Shown here: positions 50,201 to 59,321 of the stretch, piece after piece
Position numbering within the stretch: the stretch's first letter is position 1
Layout of the letters: every line of letters starts with the position of its first letter
Source of the DNA: Fimbriimonas ginsengisoli Gsoil 348
GTDB lineage: Bacteria; Armatimonadota; Fimbriimonadia; Fimbriimonadales; Fimbriimonadaceae
NCBI GenBank assembly: GCA_945881865.1
Contig: CAMCVK010000001.1
Coordinates: 372,001-436,000 of the forward strand
DNA length: 64,000 nucleotides
Direction of reading: 5' to 3'
Notes under the pieces: generated by a model
The model's input: the letters and a program-made list of their open reading frames with translations, nothing else
Database searches by the model: none
Told to the model about the DNA's origin: nothing
Program-made: the position numbers and the translations under genes

Positions 50201-50216
50201 CACGTATTTTTACGTG
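50201..50216 (-). terminator. Hairpin at the stop codon of the second sensor gene
   Basis: CACGTA and TACGTG (6 bp, loop TTTT) straddle the stop codon at 50210. The same hairpin occurs at the stop of the paralogue (51832-51847). The interval 50071-50200 also contains two small inverted repeats (GCCGC/GCGGC and GATGGC/GCCATC). Confidence 0.5.
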
Positions 50217-51751
50217 CTCGATTTAGGTCGGATAAACGCGCTGTATCGGGGCTCTGGGTCCTGCTCGATGCGCGTGATGAACATCTCGATTTCAAAAGTG
50301 TGCCCATCCTTGTGCAGCGCATCTATGGAGATGACCTGGTTTAGCACTCGGCTCTCGCGAGTTGTCAGGTAGCGCTCCAATCCGTTACGATGCGCCTCCC
50401 TGTGTTGCCGAGGAATAATGAGATCCTCTAACAGCTCACCCACAGCACTTAGCGCACTGTGACCGAAAATCTTTTCCGCTTGTGAATTCCAAAACTTCAC
50501 TTCCCCCTCGGCATTGATGATAATGACGGCATCCATCGATCCTCGGAATAGGCTCGTCATGAGCTCAAATTCTTTCCGCCATGCCGAGACTTCTCTGAAC
50601 TTCCACAGATATCCGACAACGTGGGGTTCCGACTTTACAATCGTGAAGTCACGCTCGTATATCTTCCCATTACGTAATTGTACGACATCTCCGTAAACAC
50701 TAACGCCATTTCGCACGATTTCCTCTACGCGGTCTATGTATTCGTCGGGAGCGACGAACGCCCCCCGCAGAACCTCTACCAACAAGCCGGAATCCATCCC
50801 GAGGAACGCGTTAGGGGAACCTCTGATGCCGAACGCGCTGAGAAAGGGTCGGTTCACGTATCGAATTCGCCTCGATGGATCCTCAAAATATACGGCCGAC
50901 GGCATATTATCAACTAGCGTCGAGATCAACAAGGCCGCGTGACGAAGCTCTTCTTCAATTGCTCGCCGATCACGCTCGTTCTGCCAGCCCCGTAGATAGC
51001 TCGCATACGTCGCAACAACGGGACCAATGTGGTCGACGAGATCCAAGTCATAGCCGCCAGGCCGATTCCCTAGTCCAATTACGCCCAGCAGCTGCCCGTC
51101 TCCGAAAACAGGTATCCCCAGAAACGTGTTCAGTGGCGGATGGCCTTCCGGCAGCCCTCCCGCTCTAGGATCGCTGTAAGGATCGTTTGAAATGATGACC
51201 TCTTGTTCGGTCAGAACTGCACCAAACAGAGTGTCCAAATTTCGGAACTCCATCCCCAAAGTTTCGGTCTCGCTGAAGAGCGCGCGCGTCTCTGCGTCCC
51301 AGGCAATATTCGTCATGGCGTGAGTTCGCATGAACGGGGCGCCCTTTTCATCCCGATAGACTTCCGCCAGGAACCCATACTCGGACTGAGTAAGAGCAAG
51401 TGCCTCCTCAAGAAACCATGCAAATAGTTCCTTAAAGATAGCTCTGCCCTCCATAAACTCTAGCAAGCATTGCAGGTTAGCCTCTAGTTGATTTCGCTGG
51501 GCCGCCTGCGCTGCTTCCGCTAGGCTTCGACCTTGACGCTGAAAAGTGCTTCTGGGACTGACGCTGCTCCCTTCCAAATTACGGAACGCATGTTCCTCAG
51601 CCTCGCGCGAGAAAGCTGCCGCTCGCCTTGGCATATTGTATTGCCCCAGAAATTTCTTCCAATAGCTCTGCGTGCTTGCCTTTAATAGCGATATGTTTGC
51701 ATTATTGTCGACCTGCCTGGCTTCATCGCTAGTCGGAGAGTGGACTTCCAT
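50210..51751 (-). CDS. GAF-PAS-PAS sensor with remnant HTH (divergent paralogue)
   Basis: A 513-residue protein. A GAF domain is at about 115-275 (YGFLAEVYRDEKGAPF, GIPVFGDGQLLGVIGL) and two PAS domains at about 280-395 and 400-510. It aligns over its whole length with the next gene upstream. The N-terminal HTH keeps only the recognition-helix half (NISLLKASTQSYWKKFLGQY); the preceding scaffold helix is replaced by unrelated sequence. DNA binding is therefore doubtful. Base composition is visibly more AT-rich than in its neighbours. A TACAAT box 8 bases before ATG 51751 supports this start. Confidence 0.75.
   Translation of the reverse strand: MEVHSPTSDEARQVDNNANISLLKASTQSYWKKFLGQYNMPRRAAAFSREAEEHAFRNLEGSSVSPRSTFQRQGRSLAEAAQAAQRNQLEANLQCLLEFMEGRAIFKELFAWFLEEALALTQSEYGFLAEVYRDEKGAPFMRTHAMTNIAWDAETRALFSETETLGMEFRNLDTLFGAVLTEQEVIISNDPYSDPRAGGLPEGHPPLNTFLGIPVFGDGQLLGVIGLGNRPGGYDLDLVDHIGPVVATYASYLRGWQNERDRRAIEEELRHAALLISTLVDNMPSAVYFEDPSRRIRYVNRPFLSAFGIRGSPNAFLGMDSGLLVEVLRGAFVAPDEYIDRVEEIVRNGVSVYGDVVQLRNGKIYERDFTIVKSEPHVVGYLWKFREVSAWRKEFELMTSLFRGSMDAVIIINAEGEVKFWNSQAEKIFGHSALSAVGELLEDLIIPRQHREAHRNGLERYLTTRESRVLNQVISIDALHKDGHTFEIEMFITRIEQDPEPRYSAFIRPKSST
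50229..50269. repeat. 41-bp sequence identical to 51860-51900
   Basis: This segment encodes the C-terminal region EQDPEPRYSAFIRP of the sensor. It is identical base for base to the same place in the paralogue, although the rest of the two genes has diverged strongly at third positions. Confidence 0.85.
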
Positions 51752-51759
51752 CGGCCCGG

Positions 51760-51765
51760 ATTGTA
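51760..51765 (-). promoter_or_regulatory. -10-like TACAAT upstream of divergent sensor
   Basis: On the minus strand TACAAT ends 8 bases before ATG at 51751. The inverted repeat CGGCCC/GGGCCG (51753-51774) surrounds it. Confidence 0.5.
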
Positions 51766-51831
51766 CAGGGCCGATTCACGAAATCTTGGTCGCCAATTCT
51801 CACGCCCCAAAAGCGTGTACCACAAAAGTAG

Positions 51832-51847
51832 CACGTAATTTTACGTG
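51832..51847 (-). terminator. Hairpin at the stop codon of the first sensor gene
   Basis: CACGTA and TACGTG with loop ATTT straddle the stop codon at 51841, matching the hairpin at 50201-50216. No T-tract follows, so the role as a terminator is uncertain. Confidence 0.5.
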
Positions 51848-53421
51848 GCCGATTTCGGCCGGATAAACGCGCTGTATCGGGGCTCTGGGTCCTGCTCGAT
51901 ACACGTAATAAGAAGCTCCACATCCAGCAGCTGCCCAGATTTGTGGAGACCCGAAATGGAGATGACCTGGTTCAAAACTCGGCTCTCGCGGGTCGCCAAA
52001 AATCGCTCAAGGCCGCGACGATGGGATTCCCGGTGCTCCAACGGAACGATGAGATCGCCGAGCAGCTTGCCTACGGACTCGGCGCTCGTGTAGCCAAACA
52101 TCCCTTCTGCCTTAGAGTTCCAGTACTCGACGATGCCCGCCGCGTTAATGACGATCACGGCGTCCATCGCCCTTTGGAACACACTCGCCAGCATCTCATG
52201 TTCGCTGCGCCAGATCGTGACTTCGCGGTACTTCCAGAGGTACCCGAGCAGGCGTTCGTTCTTTCGCACGACAACGAAGTCGCGCTCGTACACCTTGCCG
52301 TTTGCTAGCCGGACGATGTCGCCCGGAACATCGACCCCGGCGAGAAGCAGGTCATCCACGCGCTGCATAAAGCCGTCCGGATCCGCAAACATTGGTCGCG
52401 AGAGCTCTGCAACCAGCGCGCAGTCCATGCCAAGAAAATCGTTCGGCGACCCGCCAGCCCCGAAGACTTCCAGGAACAGCCGGTTTACATACTGAAGTCG
52501 GCGCTTGCCGTCCTCAAAAAGGATCGCGGTCGGCATGGAGTCCACGAGCGTGGAGGTCAGAATCGCGGCGTTTGTAATCTCTTCTTCCACCGAGCGACGG
52601 TCGCGTTCGGCCTGCCAACCCACGAGGTAGCTAGCGAACGTCGCTACCAACGGGCCGAGGTACTCCGCGATCTCCGCCTGGTATCCACCGGGTCGGTTCG
52701 CCAGCCCGATGACGCCGATCAGGTGATTTCCGCTAAATACCGGAAGCCCGAGAAACGCCGTCATTGCCGGGTGCCCGGTTGGCAAACCACCGGCTCGGGT
52801 GTCGTTCTCGGGGTCATTTGAGATAACAATTTCTGCCGAGGTAGCAACAGCACCAAAGAGCGTGCTCAGGTTTCGGAATTCCATTCCGGCATCCCCGGCC
52901 TGGCTCACCATCTCTCGGCTTGCCTCATCCCAAGCGATGTTCGTCACCGCGTGGGTTCGAAGGAAGGGTTTGTTCTCTTCGTCGCGATGGACCTCGGCCA
53001 AGAAGCCGTACTCCGACTGGCTGAGGCCAAGAAGCTCAGAAAGAAATCGTTCGAAGACCTCGCGGAAGCCGGTTCGACCGCCGATGAACTCAACGGTGCA
53101 CTCCGTGATCGCCTGGAGCACGTTGCGTTGCGCAAGCTCCTTTGCCTCGGCGAGGGTTCGCCCGCTGACCTCGGTCGCAACCTCAAGTTCCGACGGGCTC
53201 GGGCTGAGACGCAACATCGCCTTTTGCTCGGCGTGACGCGCCACGACCTCGGTTCGGCTAGCCGCCTGGTACTTCAGCAGGATGCGACGCCAGTAGCTGC
53301 TGACGGTCGCCTTGCTGATGTCGAGCTTAACAGCGATTTGCTTATCGGTGAAGCCCTCGGCGGCGAGCTCCAAAACCTGTACTTCTCTTCCGGTAGCCGA
53401 AATCTCTTTAGCGTTCTTCAT
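51841..53421 (-). CDS. LuxR-type HTH, GAF and PAS sensor-regulator
   Basis: A 526-residue one-component regulator with its HTH at the N-terminus (residues about 5-65: GREVQVLELAAEGFTDKQI, then SKATVSSYWRRILLKYQ). A GAF domain follows (about 125-290: YGFLAEVHRDEENKPF, GLPVFSGNHLIGVIGLANRP), then two PAS domains (about 295-410 and 415-525). The GAF may bind a small ligand and the PAS domains a cofactor; none can be named. ATG at 53421 is chosen; the frame extends to 53475 without support. The paralogue downstream lies 89 bases away. Confidence 0.82.
   Translation of the reverse strand: MKNAKEISATGREVQVLELAAEGFTDKQIAVKLDISKATVSSYWRRILLKYQAASRTEVVARHAEQKAMLRLSPSPSELEVATEVSGRTLAEAKELAQRNVLQAITECTVEFIGGRTGFREVFERFLSELLGLSQSEYGFLAEVHRDEENKPFLRTHAVTNIAWDEASREMVSQAGDAGMEFRNLSTLFGAVATSAEIVISNDPENDTRAGGLPTGHPAMTAFLGLPVFSGNHLIGVIGLANRPGGYQAEIAEYLGPLVATFASYLVGWQAERDRRSVEEEITNAAILTSTLVDSMPTAILFEDGKRRLQYVNRLFLEVFGAGGSPNDFLGMDCALVAELSRPMFADPDGFMQRVDDLLLAGVDVPGDIVRLANGKVYERDFVVVRKNERLLGYLWKYREVTIWRSEHEMLASVFQRAMDAVIVINAAGIVEYWNSKAEGMFGYTSAESVGKLLGDLIVPLEHRESHRRGLERFLATRESRVLNQVISISGLHKSGQLLDVELLITCIEQDPEPRYSAFIRPKSAT
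51860..51900. repeat. 41-bp sequence identical to 50229-50269
   Basis: Second copy of the perfect 41-bp match between the two sensor genes, at the same distance from the stop codon in both. Confidence 0.85.
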
Positions 53422-53488
53422 TAGCGGTCGGACATTTGATCCTACCTTCGGTTCCCGGCAATGCCTGACGCACAAACGTGTTAACGGA

Positions 53489-54273: not shown

Positions 54274-54807
54274 GTGCTTCATAAAGCTCGTGAGCTTCAC
54301 CGTATTGTCGGTCTCGTCAACGCGGTCTTCCTCCTGCTGATCAGCGTCACTGGCTTTCTGCTCGCCACGAAGTCTCGCGTTGCCTGGATCCGTCCCGAGG
54401 AGAAAACGGGTCAGAAAATCGAGAGCCACGTCGATACCATTTCGGTAGATCGGGCGATGCAGGCGGCTTTCGCCGTCGGGTTAGCCGAACTGAAGACGCC
54501 GAAGGACATCGACCGCGTTGACTACCGGCCGAAGCGAAACGTCTACAAAATCGTCGCGAAAACCGGCTACCAGGAGGTTCAGGTGGACGGCAAGACCGGC
54601 GAGGTTTTGCAGGTGGCCAAGCGAATCGACCAGTTCACCGAGGACGTCCACGACCTGAGCTTTTTTGGCGACGGCTTCAACACCTTCGTCTTACCGGTGG
54701 TCGCGCTCTGTCTCGCGACGCTTAGCGTGAGCGGAATCGTGATCTACACGATTCCGATTCTTCGCCGACGGAAGTTCTTCAAAAAGAATCCGCCTAGGGC
54801 TGGATGA
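54274..54807 (+). CDS. PepSY-associated two-helix membrane protein
   Basis: A 177-residue protein, GTG start. One membrane segment lies at about 12-30 (VGLVNAVFLLLISVTGFLLA). A PepSY-like extracytoplasmic domain follows (about 55-120: YKIVAKTGYQEVQVDGKTGEVL), then a second segment at about 140-165 (FVLPVVALCLATLSVSGIVIY). PepSY proteins inhibit or regulate extracytoplasmic peptidases, and others belong to metal reductases. The divergent neighbour is the BSP-like peptidase, a suggestive but unproven pairing. Confidence 0.78.
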   Translation: MLHKARELHRIVGLVNAVFLLLISVTGFLLATKSRVAWIRPEEKTGQKIESHVDTISVDRAMQAAFAVGLAELKTPKDIDRVDYRPKRNVYKIVAKTGYQEVQVDGKTGEVLQVAKRIDQFTEDVHDLSFFGDGFNTFVLPVVALCLATLSVSGIVIYTIPILRRRKFFKKNPPRAG

Positions 54808-55951
54808 GGTGCGGAACGAAGCGGCTGGTATCGGTGGTGATCCATCCGTCGGCTTCGCGAATGCCCACGCCGCAGGATTCATCCCCGACGACCCAGGAGC
54901 CGATCACGGCCGCACCGGCAACCGTCCAGTACAGCGGCGCCACTGCCTGATAGACGAAGCGCGGCTCGAACCCGGCCGGCCCCATCTCGGCTTCCGGCGT
55001 TTCTTCTTGAGTCACGCCTTCGACCACAACGGTAATGCCATCGCCCTCGCGCGAAAATAACGGCTTTCGCACGAAGTCGGTGAGGTCTCCGGGTTCGTCG
55101 AAATAGGCCGGCAATAGGTTAGGGTGACCGGGATATCGCTGCCAAAGGATCGGAAGCAACGCCTTGTTGGAAAGCAGCATCTTCCACATCGGCTCGATCC
55201 AGATCGAGCGCATGTCCGGGAGGAGTGCCTTCTCACCGAAGTCTTCGCGCACCAACCACTCCCACGGATACAGCTTGAAGAGCTTTCGGATCGGGGCTTC
55301 CGCCGCATCCACGAACGTATTGCGGTCCGAATTCCAACCAATGTCGCTCATCAGAAGGCCATCGCTTCGCAGGCCAGCCGAGGTCGCCGTATCCCGAAGC
55401 AGGGAGACCGTGAGTAGGTCCTCATCCGAATCGGAGTGCGCGAAGTGAATCTTGCCGGGCAACGTGCCGTCGGCACTGAGTGCCTGCCAACGCGCGACGA
55501 GAGCCTCCCAAATCGAGTTGAACTGGTCGGAACCAGGGAATCGGTCCTGGCTCCATTGCCATTGTACGACCGCCGCCTCGAGCAGAGCGGTCGGCGTGTC
55601 GGCATTGTATTCCAGGAGCTTGGGCTCCGATTCGCCGTCGTAAGCCAGGTCGAACCGGCCGTAGAGATGCCCCTTTGGGCCCTTGTAATCTTCGATCATC
55701 GCCGTCGCGGCGGCTTCCGGGATCCCAAATTCAGCGATCTGGCGGGTTCGAATCAGGTCGTCAACTGTTTCGAGACAGAGCCGATGAAGCTCGTTGGTCG
55801 CGTTTTCGATGCGCTCGACATCGGTATCGTCCAGCGTGTAGTAGGCACTCTCGTACCAGTACGGCTGCCCGCCGAGCGTGTGGTAGGTGAGGCCCCATTT
55901 CTCGACCTTAGCCGGCCAATCGGGGCGGGGAGGAATGTCAAAACGTCGCAT
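54794..55951 (-). CDS. Glutathionylspermidine synthase-family ATP-grasp ligase (YgiC/YjfC-like)
   Basis: A 385-residue ATP-grasp carboxylate-amine ligase of the GSP_synth family. The N-terminus has PYWYESAYYTLDDTDVERIE; the ligase motifs include YGRFDLAYDGESEPKLLEYN and ADTPTALLEAAVVQWQW. The family includes the synthetase half of E. coli Gsp and the orphan enzymes YgiC and YjfC, whose product is not glutathionylspermidine. The amidase domain of Gsp is absent. It is preceded in the operon by a glycine-rich lipoprotein 3 bases away, the same arrangement as ygiB-ygiC. It overlaps the convergent PepSY gene by 14 bases. Confidence 0.87.
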   Translation of the reverse strand: MRRFDIPPRPDWPAKVEKWGLTYHTLGGQPYWYESAYYTLDDTDVERIENATNELHRLCLETVDDLIRTRQIAEFGIPEAAATAMIEDYKGPKGHLYGRFDLAYDGESEPKLLEYNADTPTALLEAAVVQWQWSQDRFPGSDQFNSIWEALVARWQALSADGTLPGKIHFAHSDSDEDLLTVSLLRDTATSAGLRSDGLLMSDIGWNSDRNTFVDAAEAPIRKLFKLYPWEWLVREDFGEKALLPDMRSIWIEPMWKMLLSNKALLPILWQRYPGHPNLLPAYFDEPGDLTDFVRKPLFSREGDGITVVVEGVTQEETPEAEMGPAGFEPRFVYQAVAPLYWTVAGAAVIGSWVVGDESCGVGIREADGWITTDTSRFVPHLIQP

Positions 55952-55954
55952 CGA

Positions 55955-56242
55955 CTAGCTTCCGCCGCCGCCGAAGCTGCCGAAGCCGCCGCGCGAGGTT
56001 GAGCTGCCGACTCCGCCGGCCCGCGAGCCGGTGCCTGGATCGTACGAACCGCCTGAGATTCGGCCGCCGCCAATCGGGCTGCCGCCGTAGATGAAACGCG
56101 AACCAGCGGTTCCCCGGTTGCACTCGATATCGGGCCGACGGTTCCCGAGTTGGTCGACGCAGTCGCGCCGCTGACCCGCACAACCGGTCAGGATAAGGCT
56201 AGAGAAGGCAATAACGTAAACGAGTTGGATTTCTTTTTTCAT
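55955..56242 (-). CDS. Small glycine-rich lipoprotein (YgiB/DUF1190-like)
   Basis: A 95-residue predicted lipoprotein. The signal peptide ends ILTGC (Cys about 20). The mature part has a DCVDQLGNRRPDIEC pair of cysteines, then a Gly/Ser-rich region and the C-terminal SRGGFGSFGGGGS. E. coli YgiB and YjfM, encoded next to YgiC-type ligases, are lipoproteins with a GGFG-type tail; this looks like a short relative. ATG at 56242 is preferred to 56257. The tail is the obvious candidate for modification by the adjacent ligase. Confidence 0.68.
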   Translation of the reverse strand: MKKEIQLVYVIAFSSLILTGCAGQRRDCVDQLGNRRPDIECNRGTAGSRFIYGGSPIGGGRISGGSYDPGTGSRAGGVGSSTSRGGFGSFGGGGS

Positions 56243-56309
56243 TTCAGAAAAGACCATAAAGATTTACGCGTTTGTCCATGTCGAGGATGCATTCGAGGCT
56301 TAGATTTTC

Positions 56310-59300
56310 TTATTTCGACGTGAATGTAGCGCTGCCGGACCCCATCTTGTAAACCTTCTGGCTGCCATCGCGTTGCGGTACGACGACCTCGGCCCGAACG
56401 TTTGGCGGGACCTCAACCTTAACCGAAACGGTGCGACCGTTTCGCCGCCACGAGCACCGAATCTTTCCGCGAACCGAGTTGAACTTGGCATCCGCCCAAC
56501 TCAACTTAGGGTCGAAAACCGGCGCGATTCGAACCCGACCGAAGCCCGGCTCGAGCGGCGTGATTCCACCGATCGTCTGGAACATCCAGCCCGCGACCGC
56601 GCCGTAGGCGTAGTGCGAGAATGAGTTCATGCCTGGGTCTTGGTAGCCCTTCTCGGGCGTCCAGCCGTCCCACCGCTCCCAGATCGAGGTCGCTCCATTT
56701 ACGATTGTGAAGCCCCACGACGGGAAAGTCGTGTTGTGCAACAGCCGAAACGCAACGTCATTGCGCCCGATCTTCGAGAGGACGTGCATAAGGTCACGCG
56801 TGCCCACGAACCCGGTCGAAAGATGCCAGTTTCGCTTTTCGATGTCCGCCACGAGGAAGTTAGCGGCCAGTTTTGCCTGCTTTGGCTCCAGGAGGTCGAA
56901 CGCCAGGGCAAGAACATAGCTGCACTGGGTTTCGCCTCGCACCTTGCCGTCGGCGGAGACGTACGCCGATTGGAACGCCTTTCGAAGCCGTTGATGTAAT
57001 GCTTCGTACCGGTTGGCGTCCTGGGTCTCGCCCAAGATCCGGGCGGCGCGCGCCACCAGCGCGGTGCTTCCGGCGAAGTACGCGGTGGTGATCACATCGT
57101 TCGGCGTGTTCGCGCCGATGCTGAGCCAGTCGCCGAAGGCGTGGTACTGGTCGGGCGGCAACAGGCTTGGCTTCGAGCGCTTCAGGCAGAACTCGATGAA
57201 CCGCTTCATGTTTGGGTAGTGCTTCGCCAGCATCGCCCGGTCGCCGTACATGTCGTAAATCGTCATCGGGCAGATGACTCCGGCGTCAGACCACGCCGGT
57301 CCGCCGTCGTCTAGCCCGGCCAAAACGGGGGCCACTTTGGGATACTGCCCGTCGGCGCGCTGGTCGTCATCCAGCGTCTCGCCCCACTTCCGAAAGAACG
57401 CCTGGACGTCGGAGAAGTAGCTCGCGGTCTGCACGTAGGCCTGGGCGTCGCCGGTCCAGCCGAGCCGCTCGTCGCGCTGGGGGCAGTCGGTGGGAACGTC
57501 GATGAAGTTCATCTTCTGCGTCCACCAGGCGTTCTGCACTAGCTTGTTCAGCATGGGATCGCTTGTGACGAGTGACCCGGTCTCGGGCGTGTCCGAGGAG
57601 ATCGCCAACGCCTGGATGGTCGAAGGATCTGGCTTGTGGACCAGCCCCGAGACCTCAACATATTGGAAGCCGTGGAACGTAAATCTTGGGTTCCATGTTT
57701 CGACTCCGGTCCCGGCCGCGACGTAGCGATCGATCGCTTGCGCCATCCGCAGGTTCGTTGTGTAGAGCTGCCCCTTTGCGTCGAGCCGCTCGCCGTGGCG
57801 AATTGTGATGGCAGAACCCTTGGGTTGCCGGACCCGTAACCGAACAAATCCGCTTAGGTTCTGGCCAAAGTCGATTAGGTAGACGCCTGGCCGAAGCGTA
57901 CGAATCGACTTCATTCGGACCGTCTGGTACGGCCGGACAGGGTTACCCGGGAAGGCTTCGATCTTGGTCGCGTAGTTTCCGATCCGGACTCCCGACCACC
58001 TGCGCGGCTTGAAGGTCGCGTCGTAGGTTTCGCCGTGAAGGAAATGTTCGTCGCGAATCGGGCCCTCGCGGAAGTTCCACCGCTCGTCCGTGCCGACCGT
58101 CTGCCGCGTGCCGTCGGTGAACTCGAGTTCGACCTGAGCCTTCAGCATCGGTGTGCTGCCGTAGTGCTCCCGCTGCATGCCCCAGGCGACGTAACCCGCA
58201 AACCACCCTTGGCCCAAAACGGCGTCCAATCGGTTTTCGCCGGGCTTGAGGAAGCTCGTAACGTCGAACGAGCGATAGTGAACGCGCTTTCGGTAGCTTG
58301 TCCAACCGGGCGTGAACAGATCGTCGGTGACTCGCTTCCCGTTGACCTCGAAGTCCACGATGCCAAGGGCGGTAACGTACGCGGTGGCCCGCTTCACTCG
58401 CTTCGCCAATTTGAAGTTGCGTTCGAAATACTGCGCGGGGGCACGGACAATCTGGCCGGCGTTGAGCGGCCCCCAAGGGCTGACGCCGTTCGGGCCGACT
58501 TCCTTAGCCGGCTTGCCGTCGCACTCCCAACTGGAATCGGTCAGGAACTCGCGCCGACTGCCACCGCCGTCGTACAAGTCCATTTTGGCGATGAGGCCGC
58601 TCGGTCCGCGCTCGGCGTTGTTCACGACGACCTCCAGGACGTTACCGTCGCGGCGCAGATCGAACTGATTGGTGACTTCTACGGGCTTTCGCCAGCCTTC
58701 TGGGTCGGTGGTCCGCGCGATTTCCTTTCCGTTCAGTCGCACCACGAAGGTGTTATCCGCCGTCAGGAAAAGCTTCAACGGACCGCCGACGCCCGAGAAC
58801 CGCTTGATGTAGGTGGATTCTCCCGCCGGAACCTGGCCCACCGGGTGAGCGGCGGATTGGATCCACTTGGCGTTACCCAGAACTTCCGGCACCGGGACCG
58901 GCTTGTTTCCGAAGACCCACTTTGCGCTCCAGTCGGAGTTCTTCTGAAGGCCGGTGGCGAAGTTTGCCGACTCGCTCCAGGCGGAGGCGCGGCCCTTCTC
59001 ATCCCAAATCCGAACCTTCCACCAAGCGTGTTGCCGCGAGGTTAGCGGCTTGCCACCGTAGCGCACCCCGAACGTGGCCGAGCTTGCAACCCGGCCACTG
59101 TTCCACAAATCGCCCTGGTTCGCGGCCAGCCTTGCCGGGCTGCTCGCCACCAGGACCGAGTAGGCCGACTGCCGCAAGTTGATCCCGCCGCATCGCACCG
59201 GCCGAAGTTTCCAAGAAAGCTCCGGTCGTGTCGCCTGGATGGCGAGCGGGTTCGTCAGGGCCTCACACCGCAGATCGAACGCAACCAGCGAGGCAGATAC

Positions 59301-59321
59301 GAGGAGCGCAGAAATCGGCAT
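56310..59321 (-). CDS. Secreted alpha-L-rhamnosidase (GH78)
   Basis: A 1003-residue exported rhamnosidase, length typical of GH78. A signal sequence is likely (MPISALLVSASLVAF). N-terminal beta domains follow (LTNPLAIQATRPELSWKL, ready match to bacterial GH78), with jelly-roll modules at about 140-300 and 310-480. The (alpha/alpha)6 catalytic barrel has DCPQRDERLGWTGDAQ (about 613-628) and SHYAYGAVAGWMFQTIGGI (about 893-911). It should release terminal rhamnose from plant or microbial glycans. It starts 15 bases after the Ig-repeat gene and is probably co-transcribed. Confidence 0.92.
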   Translation of the reverse strand: MPISALLVSASLVAFDLRCEALTNPLAIQATRPELSWKLRPVRCGGINLRQSAYSVLVASSPARLAANQGDLWNSGRVASSATFGVRYGGKPLTSRQHAWWKVRIWDEKGRASAWSESANFATGLQKNSDWSAKWVFGNKPVPVPEVLGNAKWIQSAAHPVGQVPAGESTYIKRFSGVGGPLKLFLTADNTFVVRLNGKEIARTTDPEGWRKPVEVTNQFDLRRDGNVLEVVVNNAERGPSGLIAKMDLYDGGGSRREFLTDSSWECDGKPAKEVGPNGVSPWGPLNAGQIVRAPAQYFERNFKLAKRVKRATAYVTALGIVDFEVNGKRVTDDLFTPGWTSYRKRVHYRSFDVTSFLKPGENRLDAVLGQGWFAGYVAWGMQREHYGSTPMLKAQVELEFTDGTRQTVGTDERWNFREGPIRDEHFLHGETYDATFKPRRWSGVRIGNYATKIEAFPGNPVRPYQTVRMKSIRTLRPGVYLIDFGQNLSGFVRLRVRQPKGSAITIRHGERLDAKGQLYTTNLRMAQAIDRYVAAGTGVETWNPRFTFHGFQYVEVSGLVHKPDPSTIQALAISSDTPETGSLVTSDPMLNKLVQNAWWTQKMNFIDVPTDCPQRDERLGWTGDAQAYVQTASYFSDVQAFFRKWGETLDDDQRADGQYPKVAPVLAGLDDGGPAWSDAGVICPMTIYDMYGDRAMLAKHYPNMKRFIEFCLKRSKPSLLPPDQYHAFGDWLSIGANTPNDVITTAYFAGSTALVARAARILGETQDANRYEALHQRLRKAFQSAYVSADGKVRGETQCSYVLALAFDLLEPKQAKLAANFLVADIEKRNWHLSTGFVGTRDLMHVLSKIGRNDVAFRLLHNTTFPSWGFTIVNGATSIWERWDGWTPEKGYQDPGMNSFSHYAYGAVAGWMFQTIGGITPLEPGFGRVRIAPVFDPKLSWADAKFNSVRGKIRCSWRRNGRTVSVKVEVPPNVRAEVVVPQRDGSQKVYKMGSGSATFTSK

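Follow-up and report, generated by a model that had tools for sequence, protein, structure and literature searches.

A lipoprotein with an RGGFG tail beside a YgiC/YjfC-type ATP-grasp ligase: a candidate substrate for C-terminal polyamination

What does a YgiC/YjfC-type ATP-grasp ligase act on? The question is raised by a locus of Fimbriimonas ginsengisoli Gsoil 348 (Armatimonadota), within a 64,000-nucleotide stretch of DNA that is referred to throughout as the window, in which the gene for such a ligase follows that of a small lipoprotein with a glycine-rich end. To our knowledge, no native substrate of E. coli YgiC or YjfC is known. Both proteins have a published peptide-spermidine ligase activity (Pederick et al. 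2023, as cited in PMC12568646), which corrects the preliminary description of the locus, where the function of the pair was called not established; RefSeq product names also call them peptide-spermidine ligases. Glutathionylspermidine is reportedly not a product of YgiC (Sui et al. 2012, as cited in PMC12506659). The ligase family, its fold, its in vitro activity, and the operon with DUF1190 and DUF350 (PMC11237479) are already known. We examined the partner lipoprotein and its tail across bacteria, plasmids, and phages.

The ligase and its adjoining lipoprotein

The open reading frames, the PF03738 match, and the gap between the genes confirmed that a ligase of this type begins 3 bases after a 95-residue lipoprotein, as had been proposed from the sequence (Table 1). 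The ligase matched the GSP_synth profile over its whole length (positions 1 to 371 of 371; E = 5e-132; 441 bits against a curated cutoff of 29.3). Its nearest solved structures by sequence were E. coli YgiC (7uk8; E = 3.5e-92) and YjfC (7uk6; E = 1.2e-78), to which it is 43% and 40% identical, respectively, over the full length. Its AF2 model (pLDDT 90.4, pTM 0.91) gave 7uk6 as the top PDB match (TM 0.92), with a TM of 0.87 to 7uk8. The protein has no signal peptide, and PF03738 is its sole domain: the N-terminal CHAP-type amidase domain of the bifunctional GspSA (619 aa) is absent from its 385 residues. The source genome (3.2 Mb, 26 contigs) encodes only this one GSP_synth protein.

Table 1. 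Features of the ligase-lipoprotein locus, in window coordinates
Feature	Position	Strand	Basis
YgiC/YjfC-type ATP-grasp ligase, GSP_synth family, 385 aa	54794..55951	-	PF03738 match and predicted fold
GspSA-equivalent active-site stretch of the ligase	54857..55657	-	Alignment to E. coli GspSA
Intergenic gap between lipoprotein and ligase, 3 bases	55952..55954	-	
Partner lipoprotein, 95 aa from the MKKE start, without a Pfam family	55955..56242	-	ORF and in-family alignment A3
C-terminal tail SFGGGGS, 7 residues; free Ser carboxylate is the proposed ligation site	55958..55978	-	
RGGFG motif, lipoprotein residues 84 to 88, proposed ligase docking element	55979..55993	-	Partner alignment
Cys28...Cys41 pair, CVDxxGxxxPDxxC, in a small predicted fold	56120..56161	-	Both Cys invariant in alignment
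Signal peptide with lipobox LTGC (Cys21)	56180..56242	-	No change at G20 or C21 across 24 Armatimonadota sequences

The ATP-grasp fold is shared with GspSA and trypanothione synthetase (TM of about 0.7 to 0.85), with equivalent catalytic, carboxylate, and spermidine residues. In GspS, ATP phosphorylates the C terminus of glutathione and the N1 of spermidine attacks, with Glu391 holding spermidine and Ser337 assisting (PMC6272389); the group that GspSA activates is the carboxylate of the C-terminal Gly of glutathione. A model of trypanothione synthetase assigns Mg-ATP and glycyl-carboxylate roles to Arg328, Glu344, Asn346, Lys513, and Lys548 (PMC3581523). Aligned to GspSA, the window ligase has R99, D101, E114, N116, T119, and T121 at the positions of R316, D318, E330, N332, S335, and S337, and E177, D178, K263, K296, R301, and R365 at those of E391, E392, K498, K533, R538, and R598. 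At 9 of these 12 positions the residue is identical; S335 and S337 are each replaced by Thr, and E392 by Asp. Most of the 12 are invariant in ligase alignments A1 and A6. By this alignment, the Mg-ATP, acyl-carboxylate, and spermidine sites of GspS are conserved. In contrast, the GspSA glutathione-site residues T446, W571, and D610 are replaced by W232, A338, and R377. Retention of the GspS catalytic, carboxylate, and spermidine residues indicates that the predicted site for a polyamine and for the carboxylate of a small C-terminal residue has been kept, and we infer peptide-spermidine ligation as the putative activity of the window ligase.

The lipoprotein begins MKKEIQLVYVIAFSSLILTGC and ends STSRGGFGSFGGGGS, its tail being SRGGFGSFGGGGS; an upstream ATG at 56257 is an alternative start and would give a protein of 100 aa. 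The signal-peptide consensus among Armatimonadota partners is MKKSxxVPAxL...GC, and residues 24 to 70 were modelled with a pLDDT of about 68 to 85 in the read-through fusion model described below. Neither Pfam nor NCBIfam gave any match to the window lipoprotein, the DUF1190 models PF06693 and NF008655 included. Profile comparison with DUF1190 proteins gave a probability of 97%, resting on the tail, and one of 94% for the N-terminal part alone, to which signal-peptide similarity may contribute. The window lipoprotein has the context of a DUF1190 protein (membrane anchor or signal peptide, RGG[FY]G tail, and adjoining YgiC-type ligase) and not its two Cys pairs, since comparison with the proteobacterial and phage alignment leaves it the single pair C28 and C41. 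Window-type partners and DUF1190 proteins are plausibly one very divergent family.

The same pairing had been pointed out in E. coli (ygiB-ygiC and yjfM-yjfC), and this proved correct. There, too, the gene for an anchored protein lies directly upstream of that for a ligase of the same fold, and the tails of YgiB (...TVTRGGFGES...SRSMGG) and YjfM (...TVSRGGYGRSSSARGHWGG) share the motif RGG[FY]G and end in GG. The E. coli partners have 212 to 223 residues, two Cys pairs, and a DUF1190 model match, whereas the window partner has 95 residues, one pair, and no such match. In E. coli, as in other proteobacteria, PspA-type and DUF350 genes belong to the operon as well; the PSP-associated operon, as described in PMC11237479, comprises an ATP-grasp peptide ligase, DUF1190, DUF350, and a K+ channel. 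It resembles the loci sampled here in its ligase family and lipoprotein partner and in the presence of DUF350 downstream at many of them (the immediate downstream neighbor in 26 of 62 same-strand cases). In contrast to the E. coli system, the source genome has no DUF350 gene and thus a bare pair; the minimal conserved unit is therefore the lipoprotein and the ligase.

Distribution of the pair in bacteria, plasmids, and phages

With the window ligase as query, 84,980 species genomes were scanned and the best 80 of at least 592 relatives were taken as loci, a sample of top-scoring relatives that is tilted toward the ligase's own clade. Phyla among these best 80 of at least 592 were Acidobacteriota, Hydrogenedentota, Planctomycetota, Actinomycetota, Pseudomonadota, Bacteroidota, Sumerlaeota, Verrucomicrobiota, and others. 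In 115 of 115 evaluable loci, those from Armatimonadota and the best 80 of at least 592 included, the ligase had as its neighbor a small protein, anchored in the membrane and bearing a tail of RGGFG type, whose gene usually overlapped that of the ligase or ended at most 9 bases upstream (gap of −4 to +9 in most family members). Scored as the pattern [RKHTSQ][GS]G[FYLIAMW]G near the C terminus of the ORF ending at the ligase start, the motif was present beside the ligase in 114 of 116 loci, E. coli included. The two loci off the pattern are L010, which has the variant YGGFG, and L088, which is not evaluable, its contig starting only 193 bases upstream. As a background, 4,493 other ORFs of 80 aa or more in the 116 loci gave 38 matches to the same loose pattern (<1%), and only one of the 38, a tandem paralogue beside the ligase in Actinomadura barringtoniae, resembled real tails. 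Pfam matched 3 of 106 partners, all as DUF1190 (PF06693). Loci L025 (Fimbriimonadaceae) and L111 (the window's own family) have the same lipoprotein sequence, an identity by which the window belongs to Fimbriimonadaceae within the Armatimonadota. The suggestion that the pair and its tail motif are conserved in a distant phylum thus turned out to be far more general than stated, and the search for recurrence outside the proteobacteria did not refute it: nine named phyla, and phages as well, have the motif-tailed partner.

Other genes were observed around the pair. At the A. barringtoniae locus (L054:826-4658), an R2K-type ATP-grasp gene is followed by genes for two tandem RGGFG-tailed lipoproteins, and these by the YgiC-type ligase gene and a gene for a small multi-pass membrane protein; R2K_3 genes lie upstream of the pair at four loci. 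A gene for a GyrI-like small-molecule-binding protein lies downstream of the ligase at nine loci (L004, L008, L105, L111, and others), several of which belong to the window's own family. In the window itself, an alpha-L-rhamnosidase gene (56310-59321, minus strand) lies directly upstream of the lipoprotein gene on the same strand and was not seen as a recurrent neighbor of the pair among the loci sampled. Two tandem paralogous regulators are encoded at 50210-53475 (minus strand), the second with LuxR-type HTH, GAF, and PAS domains.

Plasmid and phage records provided an independent sample: 18 ligases with 33% or more identity to the window ligase. A tailed partner was present for 17 of them; the variants among these 17 partners are two that keep GFG (SAGFG and RQGFG) and one RGGWG. 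The partner lies downstream of the ligase in Rhodobacter, and in several phages one or two genes separate the two; therefore, translational coupling alone does not account for the link. The sole exception of the 18 was the ligase of roseophage DSS3_VP1 (L135:802-1785), near which no tailed lipoprotein was found. Among five more distant ligases (<30% identity), four (from Brevibacillus, Vibrio, Bacillus phage FADO, and Pseudomonas phage phiK7A1) were accompanied by a small membrane protein or lipoprotein whose tail is rich in Gly/Ser and has G or S as its last residue but lacks the exact motif.

The phage loci that bear the pair (L132, L133, L134, L136 to L138, L152, L153, and L156) include many T4-like Acinetobacter and Aeromonas phages. 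In phage LAh_6 the pair follows a K+-channel-like gene, and in DSS3_VP1 an ion-channel gene (TVGYGD filter) directly precedes that of the YgiC-type ligase; the two phages resemble the PSP-associated operon in this closeness of a channel gene. An SMR transporter gene lies just before the pair in two Acinetobacter phages, and one partner (AB1I1M-1) is annotated as a putative receptor-binding protein.

Within the phylum, ligase matches were found in 41 of 291 genomes searched. Both genes are present in 19 of 61 relatives; the lipoprotein profile finds all 19 ligase genomes by construction and matches one of the 42 relatives that have no ligase (G005). The G005 remnant (L128:683-1405) encodes a 240-aa Gly-rich protein with an expanded tail that ends in Tyr and has lost the motif-plus-tail form, and this single ligase-less case suggests that the motif decays after ligase loss.

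Genes of polyamine synthesis were also surveyed. AdoMet decarboxylase occurs in 19 of 19 ligase genomes; we rejected it as a discriminating co-occurrence, the gene being near universal in the relatives, most ligase-less ones included. The source genome carries AdoMet decarboxylase and two spermidine-synthase-type genes. At some bacterial loci, the neighbors of the pair include genes for AdoMet decarboxylase, spermidine synthase, and Orn/Arg decarboxylase and saccharopine-dehydrogenase-type genes. In Achromobacter phage Motura (L133, 74267-77092), a gene annotated as homospermidine synthase, whose product has saccharopine dehydrogenase domains, stands in a row with those of a tailed lipoprotein and the ligase.

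In the available portion of PMC11237479, the shared RGGFG tail, the short non-DUF1190 partners, and the phage cassettes go unmentioned, and a search of the accessible literature gave no description of them.

Constraints on the partner tail

Across the family, the constant parts of the partner are the N-terminal anchor (often K[KR]S...GC) and the tail, joined in Armatimonadota by the invariant Cys pair. The middle region is freely variable, and total length runs from 71 aa to more than 200. Within the motif, G86 and G88 (window numbering) are invariant and G85 is nearly so in 106 partners. The stretch after the motif is 7 to 26 residues long and mostly Gly and Ser; it never falls below 7 in 114 partners, and about two dozen of these, the window partner among them, have exactly this minimum. 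Neither a transmembrane helix nor a basic cluster was found after the motif. Gly and Ser make up 72% of the tails.

The C-terminal residue is constrained as well, being Ser, Gly, Glu, or Ala in 113 of 114 partners and in 69 of 70 representatives (ligases clustered at 80%). A bulky, basic, or otherwise disfavored last residue was seen in 1 of these 70 against 18 expected from tail composition, and in 1 of 37 against 10.4 expected at 60% clustering, the same trend in a test that ignores the kinship left after clustering. Of the 70 representatives, 49 have Gly at position −2 and 42 have Ser at position −4. A Shine-Dalgarno origin was considered as the main cause of the C-terminal Gly and Ser, a GGAG-type site lying inside the tail codons for about a third of the ligases. 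It was rejected: 73 partners without a GGA-like sequence over the last four codons keep the same C-terminal ends, and the C-terminal Ser codon is TCN in 35 of 76 cases.

In graspetide systems, too, the partner of an ATP-grasp ligase is a small peptide or protein that is genetically encoded. Their ligases form intrapeptide lactam and lactone linkages (PMC8939145), whereas the tails of the window family are nearly devoid of Asp and Glu (14 of about 1,266 tail residues family-wide) and belong to exported, membrane-anchored proteins. The window tail, with no acidic residue, does not have the form of a graspetide precursor.

A proposed mechanism and its alternatives

The two genes probably encode an enzyme and its substrate, the ligase attaching a polyamine by an amide bond to the C terminus of the lipoprotein before the latter is exported. 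The cytoplasmic ligase would recognize RGGFG near the C terminus of the newly made lipoprotein, and the flexible Gly/Ser tail, at least 7 residues long, would reach the active site. There, ATP would phosphorylate the C-terminal carboxylate of the tail, and a polyamine (spermidine or homospermidine) would form an amide with the activated end; the lipoprotein would then be exported with a polyamine-capped, positively charged tail. We favor this enzyme-substrate reading because the ligase is paired in 115 of 115 evaluable loci and in 17 of 18 from plasmids and phages, because the length and end of the tail are constrained, and because ligase-less relatives, but for the one remnant, do not have the lipoprotein, the GspS residues are kept, the activity is published, and polyamine genes are present. 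The cross-phylum pairing, the motif, the minimum tail length, the C-terminal constraint, the active site, and the polyamine genes are direct observations. From them, we infer the lipoprotein tail as acyl substrate, spermidine as the amine of the source organism, and a role of the product in the envelope. Modification would have to precede export, because the lipoprotein tail ends outside and no signal peptide is present in the ligase.

The expected positions of the lipoprotein and the ligase on opposite sides of the membrane count against the enzyme-substrate reading and are its main difficulty; AdoMet decarboxylase in ligase-less relatives, the DSS3_VP1 ligase without a partner, and the results of fusion modelling and of a co-variation test were also weighed against it. 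The idea that an amine is added to the lipoprotein tail, already put forward in the preliminary description, fits the published activity, the GspS residues, the constrained C-terminal residue, and the polyamine genes in some cassettes. The encounter of the ligase with a tail destined for export is the presumed part. In a model of a lipoprotein-ligase read-through fusion (TAG = Q, 27 fused homologues), both the small middle domain and the ligase came out well, and the tail was disordered (pLDDT <50), so that docking was not shown. No ligase columns were found to co-vary with the motif beyond chance, among only five changes of R (to T, S, or H) and four between F and L; column 216 of the ligase changes on 4 of the 5 R-loss branches, and such a column is expected by chance among about 385.

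More tentatively, RGG[F/L]G and a following stretch of 7 or more small residues with G or S at its end might be a widespread bacterial and phage tag for C-terminal polyamination. YgiC-type ligases would attach spermidine or homospermidine to membrane-anchored proteins as a tether that acts in the envelope, and the phage loci might be envelope-modifying cassettes. Possible targets of the tethered polycation include anionic lipids, porins, and K+ channels. Were this true, C-terminal polyamination would be a protein modification of broad distribution in bacteria. For E. coli YgiC and YjfC and the enzymes related to them, the RGGFG tail is the obvious, still proposed, native substrate; a motif-tailed partner accompanies essentially all ligases, in lineages from Armatimonadota to actinomycetes and in T4-like phages, and it names both a candidate substrate and its exact end. 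Nearly all motif-tailed partners currently lie outside any Pfam family.

Alternatively, the RGGFG tail might dock onto or activate the ligase, which would then have a different target: a separate peptide, some other site in the lipoprotein, or a fragment released from the tail. An internal motif with a separate conserved C-terminal end is compatible with such a leader-type element, and the small middle domain of the lipoprotein is predicted to fold. We consider this alternative unlikely, given that the C-terminal residue is itself constrained, which docking alone does not need, and that no other conserved acidic or carboxylate acceptor was seen in the partner alignments.

It is rather improbable that the ligase makes a soluble conjugate of a polyamine and a small peptide, the lipoprotein being a functional partner in the same envelope-stress pathway, with a tail that binds a membrane or cell-wall component. 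GspS homologues do act on glutathione (PMC6272389), and the proteobacterial operon, that of E. coli included, with its PspA-type and DUF350 genes (PMC11237479) would suit such a pathway; however, the source genome has no DUF350 gene, and the pair alone is constant. Although the rest of the protein varies, the tail has one and the same form in Gram-negatives, actinomycetes, and phages, and a soluble product predicts neither the lower limit of tail length nor the tie between motif and ligase.

Short C-terminal sorting tags exist in bacteria (e.g., GlyGly-CTERM and PEP-CTERM), and the tail is C-terminal throughout the sampled partners. That it is a general sorting signal to which the adjacent ligase is unrelated is nonetheless very improbable, as the motif is followed by no transmembrane helix or basic cluster, ligase-less relatives have no tailed protein, and the only other clear tail in the 116 loci is that of the tandem paralogue beside a ligase. 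Finally, the Gly/Ser richness of the tails and the GGAG-type sites in their codons would fit a chance resemblance of low-complexity sequence or an origin in ligase ribosome-binding sites, but we give this reading almost no weight, as the motif is found in every evaluable locus against fewer than 1% of other ORFs, and the C-terminal pattern persists without Shine-Dalgarno-like overlap.
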